Below are positions 49,398 through 57,678 of a DNA stretch of 64,000 bases, piece by piece (the first letter of the stretch is position 1; the number at the start of each line of letters is the position of its first letter). Position numbers and translations under genes: made by a program. Where the stretch lies: assembly GCF_028583725.1 (NCBI RefSeq), contig NZ_CP110680.1, positions 2,418,001-2,482,000 on the forward strand. The letters run 5' to 3'. Below the pieces are notes generated by a model. That model did not search any database, was not told the origin of the DNA, and saw only the letters and a list, made by a program, of their open reading frames with translations. Origin of the DNA: Cellulomonas fimi (GTDB lineage: Bacteria > Actinomycetota > Actinomycetes > Actinomycetales > Cellulomonadaceae).

Positions 49398-49793
49398 TCA
49401 GCCGGGTCGGACCTCCGGGTGCGCGTCGAGCCAGGCGCGGGCGGTGCGCTTCGGCACGAGCGCGAGCCACGCGTCGGCGACGACCTCGGCGGCCTCGTCG
49501 GCCGGGAGCCGTTCGAGGCGCGCCAGGACGGCGGGGTAGCCGTGGAAGTGCGGGGTGGTGAAGTAGACGTCGGGCGCCGACGCGAGCAGCGCGTCCTTCG
49601 CGTCGAGGTCCGGCGTGCGGAAGCACACGATCTCCCCCGGCCACGCGTCGGGCCCGAGCGCCTCGTGGTCCGAGCGCCGCAGCGGTCGCTCCCAGACGAG
49701 CCCGCGCTCGTGCGCGGTCCAGCGGCGCGGGGTCGGCTCGGCGGTGTCGGGGAGCGCGACGACGGCGGCCTCCACGTCGTCCCAGGTTGCCAT
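49398..49793 (-). CDS. MmcQ/YjbR family protein
   Basis: 131 residues. RGLVWERPLRRSDHEAL, GEIVCFRTPDLDAKDALLAS, YFTTPHFHGYPAVLARLE and AWLALVPKRTARAWL match the MmcQ/YjbR fold (a CyaY-like, possibly DNA-binding domain). Function unknown. ATG at 49793; follows the DUF1801 gene by 13 bases, so the two are probably one transcript. Confidence 0.88.
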   Translation of the reverse strand: MATWDDVEAAVVALPDTAEPTPRRWTAHERGLVWERPLRRSDHEALGPDAWPGEIVCFRTPDLDAKDALLASAPDVYFTTPHFHGYPAVLARLERLPADEAAEVVADAWLALVPKRTARAWLDAHPEVRPG

Positions 49794-49806
49794 CGCGTCC
49801 GTCCTC

Positions 49807-50193
49807 TCAGCGGCCGCGCGCCGCGAGCCGGGCGTCGACCTCGGCGACCCGTCCCCGGACCACGCGTTCGAGCGTCGCGCGCGACGGCAGCGCGTCGGGC
49901 GTGAAGTGCAGGGTCGCACCGGACCAGCGCTCGTCGGGCAGCTCGGCAGCGAGCGCACGCGCGAGCGGAGGGCTCTGCAGGTGCAGGCTCAGGTGGTGGC
50001 GGGACTGCGACAGGCTGACGAGCGACCTCCCGCGGTAGGTGAGGCACGGCACCTGGTAGGAGATCACCTCTCCCGCGTCCGGCACGAGCGCGACGAGCAC
50101 GTCGCGCACCGCCCGGAGCGCCCGGGCGTCGTCGGGCGGGAGCGCGTCGAGGTACTCCTCGACGCTCGTCGCGGGCGCGTCCCCACGGGCCAT
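49807..50193 (-). CDS. DUF1801 / YdhG-like protein
   Basis: 128 residues. SVEEYLDALPPDDARALRAV, VISYQVPCLTYRGRSLVSLS and HLSLHLQ are typical of the DUF1801 (YdhG, iron-chaperone-like) family; function poorly known. ATG at 50193 six bases after TACCGT, so it has its own promoter directly downstream of jetC. It occupies the slot where jetD would be expected but is unrelated to it. Confidence 0.86.
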   Translation of the reverse strand: MARGDAPATSVEEYLDALPPDDARALRAVRDVLVALVPDAGEVISYQVPCLTYRGRSLVSLSQSRHHLSLHLQSPPLARALAAELPDERWSGATLHFTPDALPSRATLERVVRGRVAEVDARLAARGR

Positions 50194-50199
50194 GCCCTC

Positions 50200-50205
50200 A
50201 CGGTA
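50200..50205 (-). promoter_or_regulatory. Leaderless promoter -10 of the DUF1801 gene
   Basis: TACCGT on the minus strand six bases before the ATG, right after the hairpin at 50206-50220. Confidence 0.45.
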
Positions 50206-50220
50206 GGGGCGCGACGCCCC
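50206..50220 (-). terminator. Hairpin closing the jetABC operon
   Basis: GGGGCG-CGA-CGCCCC, a six-pair stem in the 98-base gap after jetC. Suggests the operon ends with jetC. Confidence 0.4.
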
Positions 50221-50291
50221 GTCCGGCCAGCGTCGCGGGGACCCGCACACGCCGGCGTCGGGCGGTCGGCGACCTCCACGACGTCGGGGTG

Positions 50292-53200
50292 TCAGGGGGC
50301 CGGCGCGCCCTCGGGGACGCCCACGACGGGCTTGGTCCGCGACCGCCCGGACGCGTCCTTGAGCACGACGTACGCGAGGTCGACGTGCGGCTCGAGCGCG
50401 CTGAACTTGTCGTTGGGCGCGCCGATCACGAGCTGGAACCCCAGCCCGCGCCACGCGCCGATCGCCCGACCGGTGAAGCGCGCGTCGGCCTTGATGAGGG
50501 CCTCGTCGAGGAACACGGGCGCGTACCGGGGCCGCTCGGCGCCCGCGTCGCCGAGCTGGTAGCGCAGCGCGGCGCCGACGATGAACGCGACGAGCTCCTG
50601 CGACTCGCCGCCGGACTTCTCGCCGATGTGGTCGTACAGCGCGACGTGCCGTCCGTCGAGGTCGACCTTCTCGGCGGACAGCCGCACGTGCCGCCGCACG
50701 TCGACGAGGTCGGCGAAGTCGGGTGCGGTGCGGCGGATCCGGTCGACGACCTTCGCCATCCGCACGTACCGGCGCTCGCGCTCGGCGTCGGTCGCGTCGG
50801 TCGCGAGCACCTCGCGCAGGTCGCGCAGCTCCTTGCGGAACCGGGCGACGACGGTCGACTGGGTGTCGCGCGCGTCGATCCGCAGGCGGTGGTCGTCGTC
50901 GGCGAACGGCAGGTCCGCGAGGATGTCGTTGACCGGCCGGATGCGCTCCTTGATCTCCCGGACCGAGCGCGCGAGCGCGCTGTGGAGGTCCGCGAGGTCG
51001 TTGCCGGACAGCCGCAGCAGGCTGCGCCGCCACTCGGCCTCGAGGTCGTGCAGCCCATTCGTCTCGAGCTCGACGAGGACACGCGCGAAGTCGCCGTACG
51101 ACGCGTCGGGGTCGGTGCCGAGGTTGGGGTCGGGCCAACGCTCGACGAACGTCTCGAACGTGCGGCGCAGCGCGTCGCGCGCGGAGCCGATGCGCTGCTG
51201 CGCGGCCTGGCGGTCGGCCAGGAGCAGCGCGTTCGCCCGGGCGAGCACCTCGTCGAGGGCCCGCAGCGAGCCGACCGCGTCGTGCGCGGGCGCCGAGGCC
51301 TCGGGACCGCCGTCGAGCAACCCCTCGACGTACGCGCGCTGCGCCGGCCCGACCGTCGTGCCCGCCGCGGTGGCCTCGTCGAGCGCGCGCTGGGCGGCGT
51401 CGACCTCGTCGGTCGTCGCCGACCACTGCTCGCCGAGCGCCTGCGCGTCGGCCTTGGTGCGGCCCAGCAGCTCGGTGAGCGCGGTGATCGTCGTGTCGAG
51501 CTCGTCGGCTCGACGCTGCAGGTCGGCGATCTGCGGGTTCCCCGCGGTGACCTCCTCGACGACCTGCGCCCAGCGGGCACGCGTCGCCTCGACGGACGCG
51601 ACGTCGACCTGCTCCCACGTGACGGCGACGACCTGCTCGAAGGCTCGGCGCTGCGCGTCGCCCTCGTCGAGCCGCGACTCCGCCTCGGTGACGCGCGCGG
51701 CCGCGAGGTCGAGGCGCTGCTGCGCGCGCGCGATCTGCTGGTCGAGGAACGCGAGCCGGCGCGTGTTGGTGAATCCGAGCACGTTGGCGTGCCCCTGCCC
51801 GCCGTGCGCGCCGCGCGTGCCCTGCGACACCTGCCCGGTCCGGGTCAGCGCCTTCGCGTGCTGCGCGAGCTCGCCGGGCGTGTCCACGCACACGTAGTCG
51901 AACCGCTGCGCGAGCTCGCTGCGCAGCCACGCCGTGAAGGGGCCGGCACGGAAGTCGAGCCGGCCGGGCAGCGTGCGCGAGTCGAGCGCGACGTCGTCGG
52001 GGCCGCCGGTCGGCACGCCCTGGAACTGCACGCGCCGCCCGGTCGGCACGGTGTCGATCGCGGCCCGGAACGCGCGCAGGTGCGCCGCGTCGAGGAGCAG
52101 GACGGTCGCGAAGCCGCCGAGCGCCAGGTTGAAGGCGTCGCGCCACGGCTCGTGCTCGGTGCGGACCTCGACGAGCTCGGCCACGAACGGCAGGTCCTCG
52201 GGCGTGAGCCCGGCCGCCTGCGCGAGGGCCGCACGGGCCGCGTGCAGGTCGCGCGGCACGTTGTCGCGGCGGCGCTCGACGTCGCGACGCTCCGCCTGGA
52301 GGTCCGCGAGGTCGGCCGCGGCCTCCTTGCGCTCCGAGCGCGCGTCGGCGAGCTCGTCGAACGACCGGCGACGCGCGCCGCCGTCCGCGAGCGCGGCGTG
52401 CGCGCGCGCCACGAGGTCGGCGAGCTGCGCCTCGGTCGTCACGGTCTCGCCCGGCAGCGCACGCAGCAGGTCGTCGAGCCGCGTCCGCGCGCGGGCGACC
52501 TCCTGTGCGCGGGCCTCGGTCGCGGCGAGCTCGCGCTGCGCGTGCGCGAGGCGGTCACCGCCCGACGACCAGAGGGTCTCCTTGACGCCGTCGAGCTCGG
52601 AGCGTGCGGCGGCGATGCGGGCCTGCGTCTCGGCGACGTGGTCGCGCGCGCGGTGCTGGCGGCGCTGCAGGTCGGCCTCGGCGTCGCGCAGCAGGTCGAG
52701 ACGGCGCTCGTGCTTCCACAGCGCGGCGGGCGACGCGGGCTCGTCGAACGTGCCGATCTCGTCGATGACGCGCAGCCGATCGGCGGCCTCGTCGATCTCG
52801 GCGCGCAGCCCGCGGATCGGTTCGAGCGCCTTGACCTGCTGACGTGCGGTGACCATCTGGTCGCGCGTGCCCGAGAGCTTGTCGAACTGCTCGACGACCG
52901 CGTCGGCGGTCGCGTAGGTGTCGGGCTCCTCGAGCACCATCGCCTTGTAGAGCGCGTCGACGGTCGTGATCTGCTGCCCCGCCTGGATGCGGCCCAGCAG
53001 GGCCACGGCCTTCGCGCCGTCGCCGGACGCGCCGATGCCGAGCGTCGCGTGCAGGCGCGCGGTGAGGTCGCGGTCGGTGTCGAAGACGGTCAGGCCGGCC
53101 TCGGTGAGTGCCGGGCGGGCGAACCGGTGCGCGGCGGCGTCCTCGAGCGTGCGCAGGTCGAACGACCCGTCGCGGGTCGCGCGGACGGCGACGACCTCCT

Positions 53201-53666
53201 CGAGCGTGCGCGCGGCCGACGGCACGTACCAGGCGCGCACGGCCGTGAGCTCGGTGCCGCCCTGGTCGGTCCACGTCATCGCGATCGCCGACCACGTGTC
53301 GCGCCCGTCGCCGCGCAGCACGCGCTGCCGGGTGCTGCCCTCGTCGGTGCGCGACTCGTCGAGCTTGCCGCGCGCGTAGGACAGGATGTTGCGCTGGTCC
53401 TTGCCGCGCGGCCGGCCCACGACGCCGCCGTTCGACGCGCCGTTGAACGGCGTGGTGTGCGGCATGAGCAGCGCGATGTACGCGTCCATGAGCGTCGACT
53501 TGCCCGACCCCGAGCCGCCCGACAGCAACGTCGCGGTCGACGCGAGCCGCACGCGGTGGTGGCCGTCGTAGCCGCCCCAGTTGACGAGCTGCAGGTCGCG
53601 CGCGACCCACTGCTGACCCGTCGACGCCTCGGGGATCAGCCCGAACAGCGTGTCGACCATCGTCAT
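50292..53666 (-). CDS. jetC: Wadjet JetC / MksB-like SMC ATPase
   Basis: 1124 residues. Motor of a condensin-like complex that extrudes DNA loops. Walker [10 protein letters not shown] (50-58) near the N-terminus; long Ala/Arg/Glu-rich coiled-coil segments; a central globular region with [20 protein letters not shown]; then KSGGESQ signature (about 1017-1023) and Walker B APVFLDEA (D1054, E1055) near the C-terminus. All ATPase motifs are intact. ATG at 53666 overlaps the jetB stop (ATGA). In Wadjet operons jetD follows; here it does not. Confidence 0.93.
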
Positions 53667-54403
53667 CGGACGTCCTCCCCCGCCGCGACGCGGACCTGCT
53701 CGGCGAGCCACGCGCGCAGCTCGCTGAGCCGCTCGTTGCTCAGCACGACCTCGACGAGCGGCGTCACGCGGAACCGGCCCTCCGACTCCTCCTCGATCAG
53801 CCCCTCCTTCGCGAGCCGCGCGACGGCCGCACGGATCTCGCGCTGGTGGCTCGCGACGTTCGTGTCGTCGGGGTCGAAGTACGTGAGCGCGGTCTGCTCG
53901 ATCTCCTCGACGTCGACGCGCACCGACGTCTCCCCCGCGCCGCGCTCGCGCTGGAACACCGTCCGCAGGTGCACGAGGACGAGCGTCTCGGCGCGCGAGT
54001 ACGCGTCGTCGCGCAGCAGCACCGGCACGTCGAGCTCGGCCGAGCGCACCTGCCGCTTGTACGCGATGCCGCGGTCGTGGTCGACGACGAGGTGCACGAA
54101 GAGGTCGTGCAGCCGCGACTCGATGACCTGCTGGTTCTCCAGCAGCGTGCGCCACTGCGCGCGGTTGCGATCGGCGACGAGGAACCGGCGCTGCAGCAGC
54201 CGCACGAGCACGCGGCGCACGTCGGCGTCGAGCGTCCCCGAGTCGCCCGCGAACAGCTCCGCGGGGTCCTCCTCCATCGGTACGGGCGCGATGAAGCCGC
54301 CGCGGCCGTCGGGCTCCGGGAGGTCGACGTCGGGCAGGTCGGCGTCGGGCAGGTCGACCGTGCCGTCCTGCGCGTAGGCGTCGACGGTCGTGGCGTCAGT
54401 CAT
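53663..54403 (-). CDS. jetB: Wadjet JetB / MksE-like KITE subunit (DUF4194)
   Basis: 246 residues; the winged-helix KITE subunit that binds the kleisin. After a Pro/Asp repeat-like N-terminus ([16 protein letters not shown]) the DUF4194 core reads [55 protein letters not shown] and [22 protein letters not shown] at 54403 overlaps the end of jetA by eight bases. Confidence 0.92.
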
Positions 54404-55895
54404 CGGTCTGGTCCTTCGTGCGGATCGTGACGCCGCCGAACGCGAGGCGTCGGCGGGCGCCGTCGGGCCGGACCGCGTCGACGACGTCGACACGGTCGGT
54501 CTCGGTCATGCCGTGGGCGTACGCGAGCTCGAGCAGCCCGAGCAGGTCCACCGGCCGGCGGAGAGGGTCCGGCGCGGCGTCGAACGCCGCGGCGACGTCC
54601 ACGCCGCCCGGGGCGTCCTCGGCGCGCGACGACGCGGTGCCCGCCGCGAAGGCCGCCAGGTGCGCGTCGAGCTCCGCGTAGTGCGGCCCGCCCCACGCGA
54701 GGGCGTCGCCGCTCCCGACGTCGGCGTCGTCGTCCCAGTCCGTCAGCGGCGCGGGCGGCTCGGGCGGCTGCAGCGCGCCCGTGGTCTGGCGGAGGTGCTC
54801 GACCTCCGCGACGGGCAGGCGGCGCAGCGGCTCGACGGGCTGGAAGCGGCGCGCGTCCGGCATCCACGCCTGCAGCCCTGTCATGACGTCGCGCAGCAGC
54901 GCGTCGACCTGCCGGTCGCGCAACGGGTCGTGGTGGCGGACCTGCGACGTGATGACCGACGACGCCTCGCGCTGCGCGGCGAACACCTGGTCGAGCCCCT
55001 GCTCGATGCGCCGGACGACCTCCCGCAGCTCGGTGCGCTGCTGGGGCCCGAGCCGCCGGGAGAACCGGTGCCGCAGCACGACGTCGAGCTGCGCGGCGAG
55101 CTCGTCGAGCCGCTGCGGGTCGCCGATCAGCCGCAGCGCGCCCGCGAACGCCCGGCCCTCGGCCGTCGACTCCATGACCTGCTCGCCGCGCGCGAGGTAC
55201 TCGCGCAGCACGTCGCCCGTCGGGCGCTCGTCCTGTCGCAGCGCGGTCACGACGTCCCGCTGCATGGCCTTGATCGACTCCGCGACGCGCGCGAAGTCCG
55301 CGGGCAGCTCGCGCACGAGGTGCAGGACGTTCTCCGCCTCCTCCAGCAGCTCCTCGTCGTCGACCGTCTCGACCGTGCCCGTGCGCTGCACGCGGTCGAG
55401 CTCGGCCCGCAGGCGGCCGATCTCGGCGTCCAGCCGGGCCATCCGGACGAGCACGTCGGGGTCGGCGTCCTGCGCGAGCCGCTCGACCGCGTCGAGCAGC
55501 GTCCGCACCCGGGACTGCGACACTCGCGCCCGCGCACCGCCCGCCCGGCCCGCGACCTCGAGCGCGCCGACCGCGTGCGCGGACAGGCGGTAGACCTCGA
55601 CGTCGTCGTCGAGCACCTGACGGACCAGCCAGCCGGCCTCGGCCCACTGCCGGCACAGCTCGCGCGCACCGCCCGTCGGCAGGGTGTCGCCGTGGCCCGC
55701 GGCGCGGAGCTGGTCGAGCGCGTCGCCGATCTCGGTGTGCGCGTCGGCGACCGCGACGGTCGGGCGCTCGGCGGTGAACGTCACGGAGAGCAGCGCGACG
55801 ACCAGCGGGGCGTGCCGCTTGTGCAGCAGGTCCAGCATCGGGTTCTGGAACGCCCGGACCGCACCCAGGTACGCACCTTCGACACGAGAGATCAT
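54396..55895 (-). CDS. jetA: Wadjet JetA / MksF-like kleisin subunit (DUF3375)
   Basis: 499 residues, normal DUF3375 length. N-terminal winged-helix region ([31 protein letters not shown]) with a helical middle containing [20 protein letters not shown], then [20 protein letters not shown], typical of JetA. A Pro/Gly/Asp-rich linker near 390-420 precedes the C-terminal kleisin part. ATG at 55895, eight bases after TACGCT. First gene of jetABC. Confidence 0.92.
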
Positions 55896-55903
55896 CGCCG
55901 CAC

Positions 55904-55909
55904 AGCGTA
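55904..55909 (-). promoter_or_regulatory. -10 box of jetABC
   Basis: TACGCT on the minus strand, eight bases before the jetA ATG; 18-base direct repeats lie about 37-76 bases further upstream. Confidence 0.45.
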
Positions 55910-55945
55910 GGTGGCCGGGGCGCCGCACCCGACCACCGTCCCCCG

Positions 55946-55985
55946 CGTGCCGTCGCCGTCACGCCGTCGTGCCGTCGCCGTCACG
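55946..55985. repeat. Tandem 18-base direct repeat upstream of jetA
   Basis: CGTGCCGTCGCCGTCACG occurs at 55946-55963 and again, identically, at 55968-55985 (22-base period, two helical turns). It covers the region where a -35 box or operator of jetA would lie. Confidence 0.7.
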
Positions 55986-56024
55986 TCGTCGTCGTCGCGA
56001 CGGGGCGCACCGGTGACCCTCCCG

Positions 56025-56055
56025 GTCACGGTTCGCGCGCGAGCGTCACGGTTCG
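56025..56055. repeat. GTCACGGTTCG direct repeat upstream of gene 56128
   Basis: GTCACGGTTCG at 56025-56035 and 56045-56055, 20 bases apart. The first copy is also the right arm of an inverted repeat, GTGACC (56013-56018)/GGTCAC (56024-56029). Arrangement suits a regulator binding site. Confidence 0.6.
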
Positions 56056-56127
56056 GTCTCGACCGTCCCCGCGGGTGAAGCCCGTGCGCCACCGTGTCGA
56101 TGTCGAGGACGACGACCTGGAGGACAC

Positions 56128-57678
56128 GTGCCCGACGCGGACGACCGCCCGCTCCACGACGACGCCCTGCGCTGGCTGTGCCACCCGACGACGTGCGTCG
56201 CCGTCGCCGTGCTCCTGCTCAACGACCACGTCCTCAAGGCCGCCTTCGGCACGTGGTGGACGGGCAAGCTCTCCGACGCCGCCGGCCTCCTCGTCGCTCC
56301 CCCGCTGGTCGCCCTCGTCCTGGCGCTCGCGTGGCGGGGCCCGCGCCCACGGTCCGACCGCGTCGTACGGGCGCTCGCCGTCGCGACCGTCGGTGCGCTC
56401 TTCGCCCTCGTGAAGGTCGCGCCGCTGGGTGCGGCGGTCGCGTCGGCGGCCTGGTCGCTCGTCGACGGCCCGGGACTGGTCCGGAGCGACGCGACCGACC
56501 TCGCCGTCCTGCCCGTGCTCGCCCTGGCGTGGCGCGCGGGCGCCGGTACGCGTCCCGGACCGGGCGGCACCCGCCGCCCGACCGCTCCCGCCCGGTGGCT
56601 CGTGGTCCTGCCCGTCGCGGTCCTCGCCACGGTCGCCACGTCCGCGCCCGCCGAAGGTGACGCGGTGCAGGCGGTGGCCGTCGTCGACGGCGTCCTCGTC
56701 GTCCGGCTGCAGGACGGCGAGCGCCTCCTGTCGACCGACGGGGAGACGTGGACCGCCGCGACCGGGTCGCCGACGCAGGACGCCGTCACCAGCGCGCTCG
56801 CGGCGGCGGCCGACCAGCCCGTCGCCTGCCGGCCCGATCGCCCCGACGAGTGCTACCGACCGCTCGGCGCCGACGACGCGGACGTCGAGCACGGCCCGCT
56901 CGGCGTCGAGCGCAGCACCGACGGCGGGCGGACCTGGCGGGTCGACTGGGTCGTGCCCGCCGAGCTGCTCGACACGCTCGCGCGCCGGTACGACCCGCCC
57001 GCCGGTGCGATCCGGACACGCCAGGTCGCCGTGCTGCCGACCTCCGCAGGTGACCGCGTCTACGCCGCGAACGGGGGCGACGGACTCGCGGTCCGCCACG
57101 ACGACGGCACGTGGGAGCGCCTCGGCCACCCGTCGCCCGAGGGCTTCGACGACGTCGTCCCGATCCCCGGGCGACCCGACACCCCGCTCCTGCCGGTGCC
57201 ACCCGCGCTTCCCGTGGGCGTCGCCGTCGCGCTCGTCGTCGTCGCCGCCTCCGGGCGACGGCCCGACGTGTCCGTCGCCCCCGGGCGACGGGCGACGGGC
57301 GTGGCGCTGCTCGCGAGCTCCGGTGTCGTGCTCGCGGCGACCGCGGTGGTCGACCACGCGTGGAGGACGCTGCCCGGCGGTGACGACCTCGTCGCCGCCG
57401 TTCGCGTCCTGGTCCTGGTCGCCCTGCTCGCGGCCGGGCTCGCGCTCGTGGGTGCCGCCGCCGCGGTCCTGCACCGCGGTGCCGCGTTCGGGCTCGCGGT
57501 GCTCGTCGGGGCCGTGGTGGTGGTCACCCTCCTGGTGGTCGGCAGCGTGTGGGCGGCGGTCGCGATCGCCGCCGTCGCCGCCACCGGGGGTGTCGTCCTC
57601 GCCCGTCGGTCGACGGCGCGGCACGCGCCCTGGCCCGACGAGCCGCTGCCGTGGGGTCGGCTGCCGGGGTCGGGCTGA
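56128..57678 (+). CDS. Membrane protein of unknown function with BNR-like loop
   Basis: 516 residues, not assigned to a named family. N-terminal helices with VLLLNDHVLKAAFG and WWTGKLSDAAGLLVAP, two more helices, then an outer domain of about 170 residues containing LLSTDGETWTAA and VERSTDGGRTWRVDW, which resemble Asp-box (BNR) repeats of beta-propeller proteins. Two cysteines (CRPDRPDEC) may pair. The C-terminus has four or five helices. GTG at 56128 with GGAGG four bases upstream. Divergent from jetA; no evidence that it belongs to that system. Confidence 0.8.
   Translation: MPDADDRPLHDDALRWLCHPTTCVAVAVLLLNDHVLKAAFGTWWTGKLSDAAGLLVAPPLVALVLALAWRGPRPRSDRVVRALAVATVGALFALVKVAPLGAAVASAAWSLVDGPGLVRSDATDLAVLPVLALAWRAGAGTRPGPGGTRRPTAPARWLVVLPVAVLATVATSAPAEGDAVQAVAVVDGVLVVRLQDGERLLSTDGETWTAATGSPTQDAVTSALAAAADQPVACRPDRPDECYRPLGADDADVEHGPLGVERSTDGGRTWRVDWVVPAELLDTLARRYDPPAGAIRTRQVAVLPTSAGDRVYAANGGDGLAVRHDDGTWERLGHPSPEGFDDVVPIPGRPDTPLLPVPPALPVGVAVALVVVAASGRRPDVSVAPGRRATGVALLASSGVVLAATAVVDHAWRTLPGGDDLVAAVRVLVLVALLAAGLALVGAAAAVLHRGAAFGLAVLVGAVVVVTLLVVGSVWAAVAIAAVAATGGVVLARRSTARHAPWPDEPLPWGRLPGSG

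Follow-up and report, generated by a model that had tools for sequence, protein, structure and literature searches.

The closest described relatives of the locus considered here are the type I Wadjet systems (JetABCD, equivalent to MksBEFG and EptABCD), in which JetABC acts as a DNA-extruding motor and JetD cuts once a circle has been fully extruded, as laid out in the sections of PMC12647877 and PMC10586767 drawn on here. The second of these, a review, also carries in its relevant section the suggestion that MksBEF and MukBEF descend from Wadjet, MksBEF of Pseudomonas aeruginosa having arisen by loss of the nuclease, and it treats activity of JetABC on the host chromosome as undocumented. Here we describe a jetABC operon on the reverse strand of a 64,000-nucleotide stretch of the Cellulomonas fimi genome (hereafter the window; positions 2,418,001 to 2,482,000 of contig NZ_CP110680.1, assembly GCF_028583725.1), which is accompanied by jetD neither at the locus nor elsewhere in the genome. 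It is highly probable that jetD was lost here while jetABC stayed in working order. With a probability of roughly one half, the product is a nuclease-free loop extruder of the SMC (structural maintenance of chromosomes) type, kept by selection for a task other than cutting plasmids with JetD and most likely serving as an accessory condensin.

The operon opens with a jetA/mksF-like kleisin gene (DUF3375; 54396..55895, reverse strand, 499 amino acids; PF11855, E 2.1e-119; PADLOC JetA1, 690.9 bits), followed on the same strand by a jetB/mksE-like KITE gene (DUF4194; 53663..54403, 246 amino acids; PF13835, E 7.3e-44; PADLOC JetB1, 367.1 bits) and a jetC/mksB-like SMC ATPase gene (50292..53666, 1124 amino acids; PADLOC JetC1, 1662.5 bits; PF13555 and PF13558). 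jetA and jetB overlap by 8 bases and jetB and jetC by 4, in the manner of type I Wadjet loci, and JetC retains a complete Walker A motif, signature (KSGGESQ) and Walker B motif (PVFLDEA). The Pfam matches, the PADLOC models and the motif check thus agree with a preliminary description of this DNA, which had the three genes as intact, joined by short overlaps and encoding a JetC with a full set of motifs. JetB additionally matches the MksE model PF21980 (31.6 bits, cut-off 27); DUF4194 fits it far better and the Wadjet models are strong for all three proteins. Solved homologues exist for JetC (8dk2, 8as8) and JetA (8q72, 8as8), and JetC is 96% identical to its counterparts in Cellulomonas algicola and C. 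fimi HM71. Profile searches also recover an Smc of the canonical type (922.1 bits) together with ScpA (E 4.1e-47) from the same genome; hence, jetABC is not its sole condensin, and the replacement of Smc-ScpAB that marks MukBEF has not taken place.

Measured against type I Wadjet, JetA, JetB and JetC are all there and the JetD toprim nuclease (DUF3322-DUF2220) is missing; an operon of SMC, kleisin and KITE genes that includes no nuclease gene, as found here, is what characterizes the MksBEF type. The window genome, a single contig of 4,486,221 bases, has no match to PF09983 (JetD_C) or PF11795 (DUF3322), profiles that were controlled on 14 genomes, among which Corynebacterium glutamicum was matched by both. 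A 15-row alignment built from JetD proteins of relatives likewise finds nothing in the window genome at E <= 10, and no match in 12 further Cellulomonas genomes. In a control of 18 genomes the same alignment recovered JetD in all four with a full jetD, as well as a jetD stump in one more (G489); G020, G087 and G145 had contributed rows to it, whereas G148 and G489 were independent of it. With three profile searches empty and the control positive, a jetD elsewhere in the window genome, which the preliminary description had allowed for, is excluded within the reach of these profiles.

The absence of jetD is not peculiar to the window genome but typical of JetA-bearing genomes in the genus and in the family sample. 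No JetD match was obtained in 45 of the 56 JetA-bearing genomes of the genus (81 searched), in 100 of 122 of the family sample (150 searched) and in 27 of 51 of the class sample (296 searched; JetA above cut-off). The remaining 11 genus genomes comprise nine in which the match covers most of the domain, one with the stump (G489) and one with a broken piece on another contig (G451). At the level of individual loci, named from the best 80 of 229 matches, eight were too short behind jetC to be judged; the other 72 divide into 14 with jetD, one with a stump (L180) and 57 without, where absence refers to the locus and not to the whole genome. The genome samples and the named loci partly overlap (e.g. 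L054/L174), and the counts are not additive. Within about 20 kb around each locus, neither tblastn nor profile searches found a trace of JetD in any of 63 jetD-less loci.

Some genomes have unusual complements of these genes. One (G006) holds two jetABC operons (L086, L087) that belong to different clades and both lack jetD, and in several other genomes of its genus JetA is likewise matched twice and JetD not at all. The broken jetD piece of G451 (L244, contig 15, at about 52.6-53.2 kb) has no jetABC in the surrounding 19 kb, while the jetABC of that genome lies on another contig, without jetD. In two families of the class sample (f24 and f25), several weak PF09983 matches (E about 4e-4 to 5e-7) occur with no listed JetA match; these are probably other toprim proteins.

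The motor genes themselves are under purifying selection in the absence of the nuclease. Between the window and C. fimi HM71, both jetD-less, the ratio of nonsynonymous to synonymous substitution rates (dN/dS) stands at 0.08 in jetC, with a bootstrap upper bound of 0.10, at 0.14 in jetA and at 0.12 in jetB. Among nine pairs in which both members lack jetD at the locus, eight give jetC values of 0.06-0.27 and the ninth no jetC value. In wider pairs the corresponding values are 0.04-0.32 (14 pairs), 0.27-0.32 (three pairs with jetD) and 0.15-0.46 (three mixed pairs), and jetB is less constrained, reaching 0.46. These figures were obtained by the Nei-Gojobori method (NG86), which is rough at high guanine-plus-cytosine content; outside the wider pairs, four cells were dropped, three that gave no value (jetC of L166/L194 and L165/L166, jetA of L201/L206) and one that covered only 43 codons (jetA of L167/L168). 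A comparison of alignment columns points the same way: 627 columns are conserved in at least 90% of jetD-bearing rows, of which 618 stay so without jetD and nine drop below 70%, with 12 falling below 70% in the reverse comparison. Set against 60 label shuffles (mean 1.6, maximum 18), the nine columns do not clearly mark a relaxed JetD-binding surface. Since conserved columns and dN/dS are alike in the two groups, selection holds the motor much the same with or without the nuclease. Moreover, purifying selection together with near-identical conserved residues in proteins without jetD indicates that the job being selected is not JetD cleavage.

The same constancy is what the main rival explanation expects, namely that JetABC continues to extrude small circles and thereby silences them, missegregates them or lowers their copy number, a form of plasmid defence that dispenses with the nuclease. 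The motor described in the cited sections of PMC12647877 and PMC10586767 is one that senses and extrudes circles, and the retention of 618 of the 627 columns in proteins without JetD would follow if the reaction were unchanged up to the point of cleavage. We regard such non-cleaving plasmid control as unlikely, though deserving of the most serious attention among the alternatives. Plasmids themselves carry few relatives of this motor: among 72,556 plasmid records there are 15 JetC matches of 25-46% identity, of which five cover at least 80% of the length, and no close copy.

A different alternative is that jetABC is a broken defence on its way out, or that jetD flickers within species, the motor simply being undecayed as yet. 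Some losses indeed look recent (Cellulomonas uda, C. persica and Promicromonospora iranensis, together with the stumps L180 and L243), L140 has a split jetC, and in L148 no single operon could be called from the genes. These two loci are, however, the only exceptions among the 65 gene-called jetD-less loci, the other 63 having jetA, jetB and jetC complete; the low jetC dN/dS in eight of the nine jetD-less pairs and the spread of jetD-less clades over several genera also speak against decay. As to flickering, same-species pairs (two genomes each of N. carnea, Nocardioides luteus and P. iranensis) are alike, all being without jetD. A decayed motor was rejected on the strength of the motifs and the dN/dS values, and the explanation as a whole has very little to recommend it. 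It may further be argued that the jetD-less copy is not merely a failed defence because a copy lacking jetD coexists with a jetD-bearing one in 13 genomes for which both loci were fetched (among them G148, G145, G015 and G025).

The older jetD-less clades differ in how far they have changed. One, comprising L071, L075, L090 and L112, shows fewer changed columns than its jetD-bearing control; in these loci jetABC is followed, at a distance of a few genes, by topA (DNA topoisomerase I), while their JetA and JetC are longer than those of sister loci with jetD. Another, comprising L069, L077, L087 and L109, shows more changed columns than its control (13% versus 2% in JetA; 8% versus 1% in JetC) and may hold specialized changes.

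The pattern of jetD among relatives is best explained by loss, mostly, and repeatedly, as judged from trees and gene order. On a FastTree phylogeny of JetA+JetB+JetC from 97 loci (34 with jetD, 63 without), at least 17 changes in the presence or absence of jetD are required, all of them forced by starred branches; within the main clade (100 rows, 18 with jetD and 82 without) FastTree and IQ-TREE alike give 12. L140 and L148 were excluded from these trees, L160 entered without JetA, the jetA of L055 was taken from an open frame and the jetD of L154, overlooked in gene calling, from a class-sample profile match; FastTree also warns of long branches meeting. The tree alone cannot separate gain from loss, and the bare count in the main clade would favour gains. 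What favours loss is that JetD follows the JetC tree, that collinear flanks differ by a jetD-sized piece and that stumps survive. For 33 loci, JetD and JetC distances correlate with a Mantel r of 0.918, 17 of 30 branches are shared and none of the 10 strong JetD branches is in conflict; for the 17 loci of the main clade the Mantel r is 0.708, and one of five strong JetD branches conflicts (L169). The flanks of C. gelida, with jetD, are collinear on both sides with those of its close relatives C. uda and C. persica, without it, only the jetD-sized piece differing, and the same holds for Promicromonospora panici, with jetD, and two of the closely related P. iranensis, without it. In Cellulomonas sp. 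URHE0023 (L180) what is left of jetD behind jetABC is a set of C-terminal fragments in two frames, and the stump of G489 (L243), also behind jetABC, amounts to roughly the final quarter of the gene.

The reverse direction, in which the main clade started out with jetABC alone and acquired jetD on about a dozen occasions, draws on the excess of rows without jetD there, on the blindness of the tree to direction and on one likely gain, since the JetD of L169 (C. phragmiteti) clusters with the L145 protein, contrary to the JetC tree, and was probably regained, possibly by transfer. A precedent is the patchy distribution of MksG, for which horizontal transfer is proposed in the part of PMC10123090 consulted. 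Against it stand the stumps, the congruence of the JetD and JetC trees and the 4-base overlap of jetD with jetC in 20 of 33 operons, and we hold it to be quite improbable as the general direction. Judging by the tree, the loss in the window's line would date from about the time of its split from the C. gelida line or later; many other actinomycete lines would have dropped the gene separately.

At the window locus, the place that jetD occupies in jetD-bearing relatives is taken by a gap of 98 bases (50194..50291, reverse strand); jetC proper ends at 50292, so that position 50206, the first of the range given in the preliminary description, falls within the gap. The gap and its surroundings are collinear in C. 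fimi HM71 (84% over 1311 bases), so the missing jetD does not stem from the assembly; an assembly deletion, named at the outset as a possible refutation, is thereby ruled out as the cause of the gap. The hairpin proposed for the gap did not hold up, its folding being no better than that of shuffled sequence (z -1.1), and a scan of 49700-56300 for sigma-70 and terminator consensus sequences found neither, giving no support to the promoter of its own that had been ascribed to the neighbouring gene. That gene (49807..50193, reverse strand) does follow the gap as described, and its assignment to DUF1801 is weak (PF08818, 23.4 bits, below the cut-off of 27.2). As none of 13 other jetD-less Cellulomonas loci has a homologue of it behind jetC, we leave it outside the system. 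A loss of jetD from behind jetC fits; no scar can be read at the spot because the gene that follows is not the neighbour seen in C. gelida, C. uda and C. persica.

These neighbourhoods bear on the explanation that JetABC is partnered by some other nuclease or enzyme, encoded elsewhere or unrecognizable as JetD. The conserved columns, with no clear loss of a partner surface, agree with it, JetD could be lent by a complete jetABCD where a genome has one as its second copy, and in two loci a small MazG-like gene (PF03819, barely above cut-off; L065:12786-13136 and L067:12733-13104) overlaps jetC by 4 bases in the very slot of jetD, making it a possible partner in those lines. In contrast, no JetD-like protein was detected in the window genome or the 12 further Cellulomonas genomes, unrelated nuclease folds not being searched for. 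Furthermore, no neighbour recurs behind jetC in more than three of 14 jetD-less Cellulomonas loci. The one found in three encodes a luciferase-like monooxygenase and comes from a flank that also lies 3' of jetD in C. gelida, which makes it an old neighbour. A single replacement effector shared across the genus behind jetC was rejected on this count, and a substitute partner in general seems improbable.

In its chromosomal setting, jetABC has a synteny that suggests a settled chromosomal gene more than a mobile island. It directly follows leuS in 12 family loci, and in a thirteenth (L082) one small frame intervenes; glgP or degV often lies beyond, and the arrangement spans several genera. Eleven of these 13 lack jetD (L070, L073, L074, L076, L079, L080, L082, L084, L085, L089 and L108), and L102 and L106 carry it in exactly that place; from the sequence comparison we take the leuS slot to be an old fixed site at which jetD may be present or absent. 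Among pairs of loci from different genera, two or more common flanking genes were found in 67 of 316 jetD-less pairs, 2 of 27 pairs with jetD and 17 of 201 mixed pairs, the pairs not being independent and four loci (L085, L098, L100 and L110) having short flanks. The window operon lies at about 2.47 Mb of the 4.49 Mb contig. Among 19 single-contig JetA-bearing Cellulomonas genomes (L252-L270), 12 contigs start at dnaA, going by a motif, and 10 of these carry a jetD-less jetABC at a relative position of 0.42-0.58, close to where the replication terminus is expected; the genomes are related. G469 (0.38) and G071 (0.15) are the exceptions.

Taken together, these observations are most consistent with an SMC complex derived from type I Wadjet, with JetC as SMC ATPase, JetA as kleisin and JetB as KITE protein, that has shed its nuclease gene. 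Given the intact motifs and the solved homologues, the complex would bind DNA and extrude loops with ATP without cutting. Its likeliest job would be to form loops in the cell's own chromosome as an accessory condensin alongside Smc-ScpAB, in the manner of P. aeruginosa MksBEF, and by analogy we consider the odds that the chromosome is its main substrate to be about even. The nuclease-free loop extruder of the preliminary description thus stands as far as sequence can carry it, on the missing jetD, the intact motor, the purifying selection and the repeated loss in relatives. Several points weigh against this interpretation. jetABC is widespread and not universal, 25 of the 81 genus genomes having no JetA match. 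In the column comparison, no residue change sets the jetD-less proteins apart as specialized, and the sequence consequently gives no pointer to the chromosome as substrate. The probable regain in L169 and the transfer read from the patchy spread of MksG imply that some of the changes may be gains, and the MazG-like gene may stand for another partner in some lines. Finally, the portion of PMC7083940 cited here reports no chromosome role for the jetD-bearing complex of C. glutamicum.

On the evolutionary plane, we tentatively propose, at somewhat less than even odds, that deletion of one gene has, in Actinomycetes and on many independent occasions, converted a plasmid-cutting machine into a nuclease-free loop extruder, the motor requiring no other alteration for its new or underlying role. 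If so, plasmid cutting would be an optional add-on and the underlying function of JetABC the main target of selection, and the jetD-less lines would replay, in living bacteria, the step by which MksBEF, and perhaps MukBEF, is proposed to have arisen from a defence system. Counts of Wadjet based on jetABC genes alone would overstate plasmid defence in these bacteria. The question is open to test in cultured strains, for which close species that share their flanks and differ in jetD, stumps and genomes with both copies offer material. The parts are known; in the open-licence literature we did not find repeated loss of jetD with a retained motor described for Actinomycetes, and a search there for Wadjet together with loss, lack or absence of JetD turned up only the review PMC10586767. 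DUF3375 and DUF4194 are listed in PMC10551460 as two of the domains in which fast-growing mycobacteria differ from slow-growing ones, and the relevant part of that paper does not discuss a retained motor without jetD.

Compared with known systems, the window locus matches type I Wadjet in having JetA, JetB and JetC in the same order, in one operon and with short overlaps, and departs from it in lacking, at the locus and in the genome, the jetD that encodes the nuclease behind plasmid cutting. MksBEFG of C. glutamicum is an actinomycete homologue with the same three motor subunits; unlike the window complex, it keeps the nuclease MksG and acts on plasmids, according to the parts of PMC7083940 and PMC10123090 that deal with it. 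MksB of Borrelia burgdorferi is likewise an Mks-type SMC and has an effect on the chromosome there (as stated in the cited part of PMC10406323), in a bacterium without MksE and MksF, whereas kleisin and KITE protein are kept here. MksBEF of P. aeruginosa, a condensin without a nuclease, is also a three-subunit SMC-kleisin-KITE complex in a cell with an SMC condensin; the chromosome role reported for MksBEF (PMC7485682) is one that we would only predict for the window complex. The two differ further in that P. aeruginosa belongs to another phylum and that, among the relatives of C. fimi, the losses are many and the intermediates survive.

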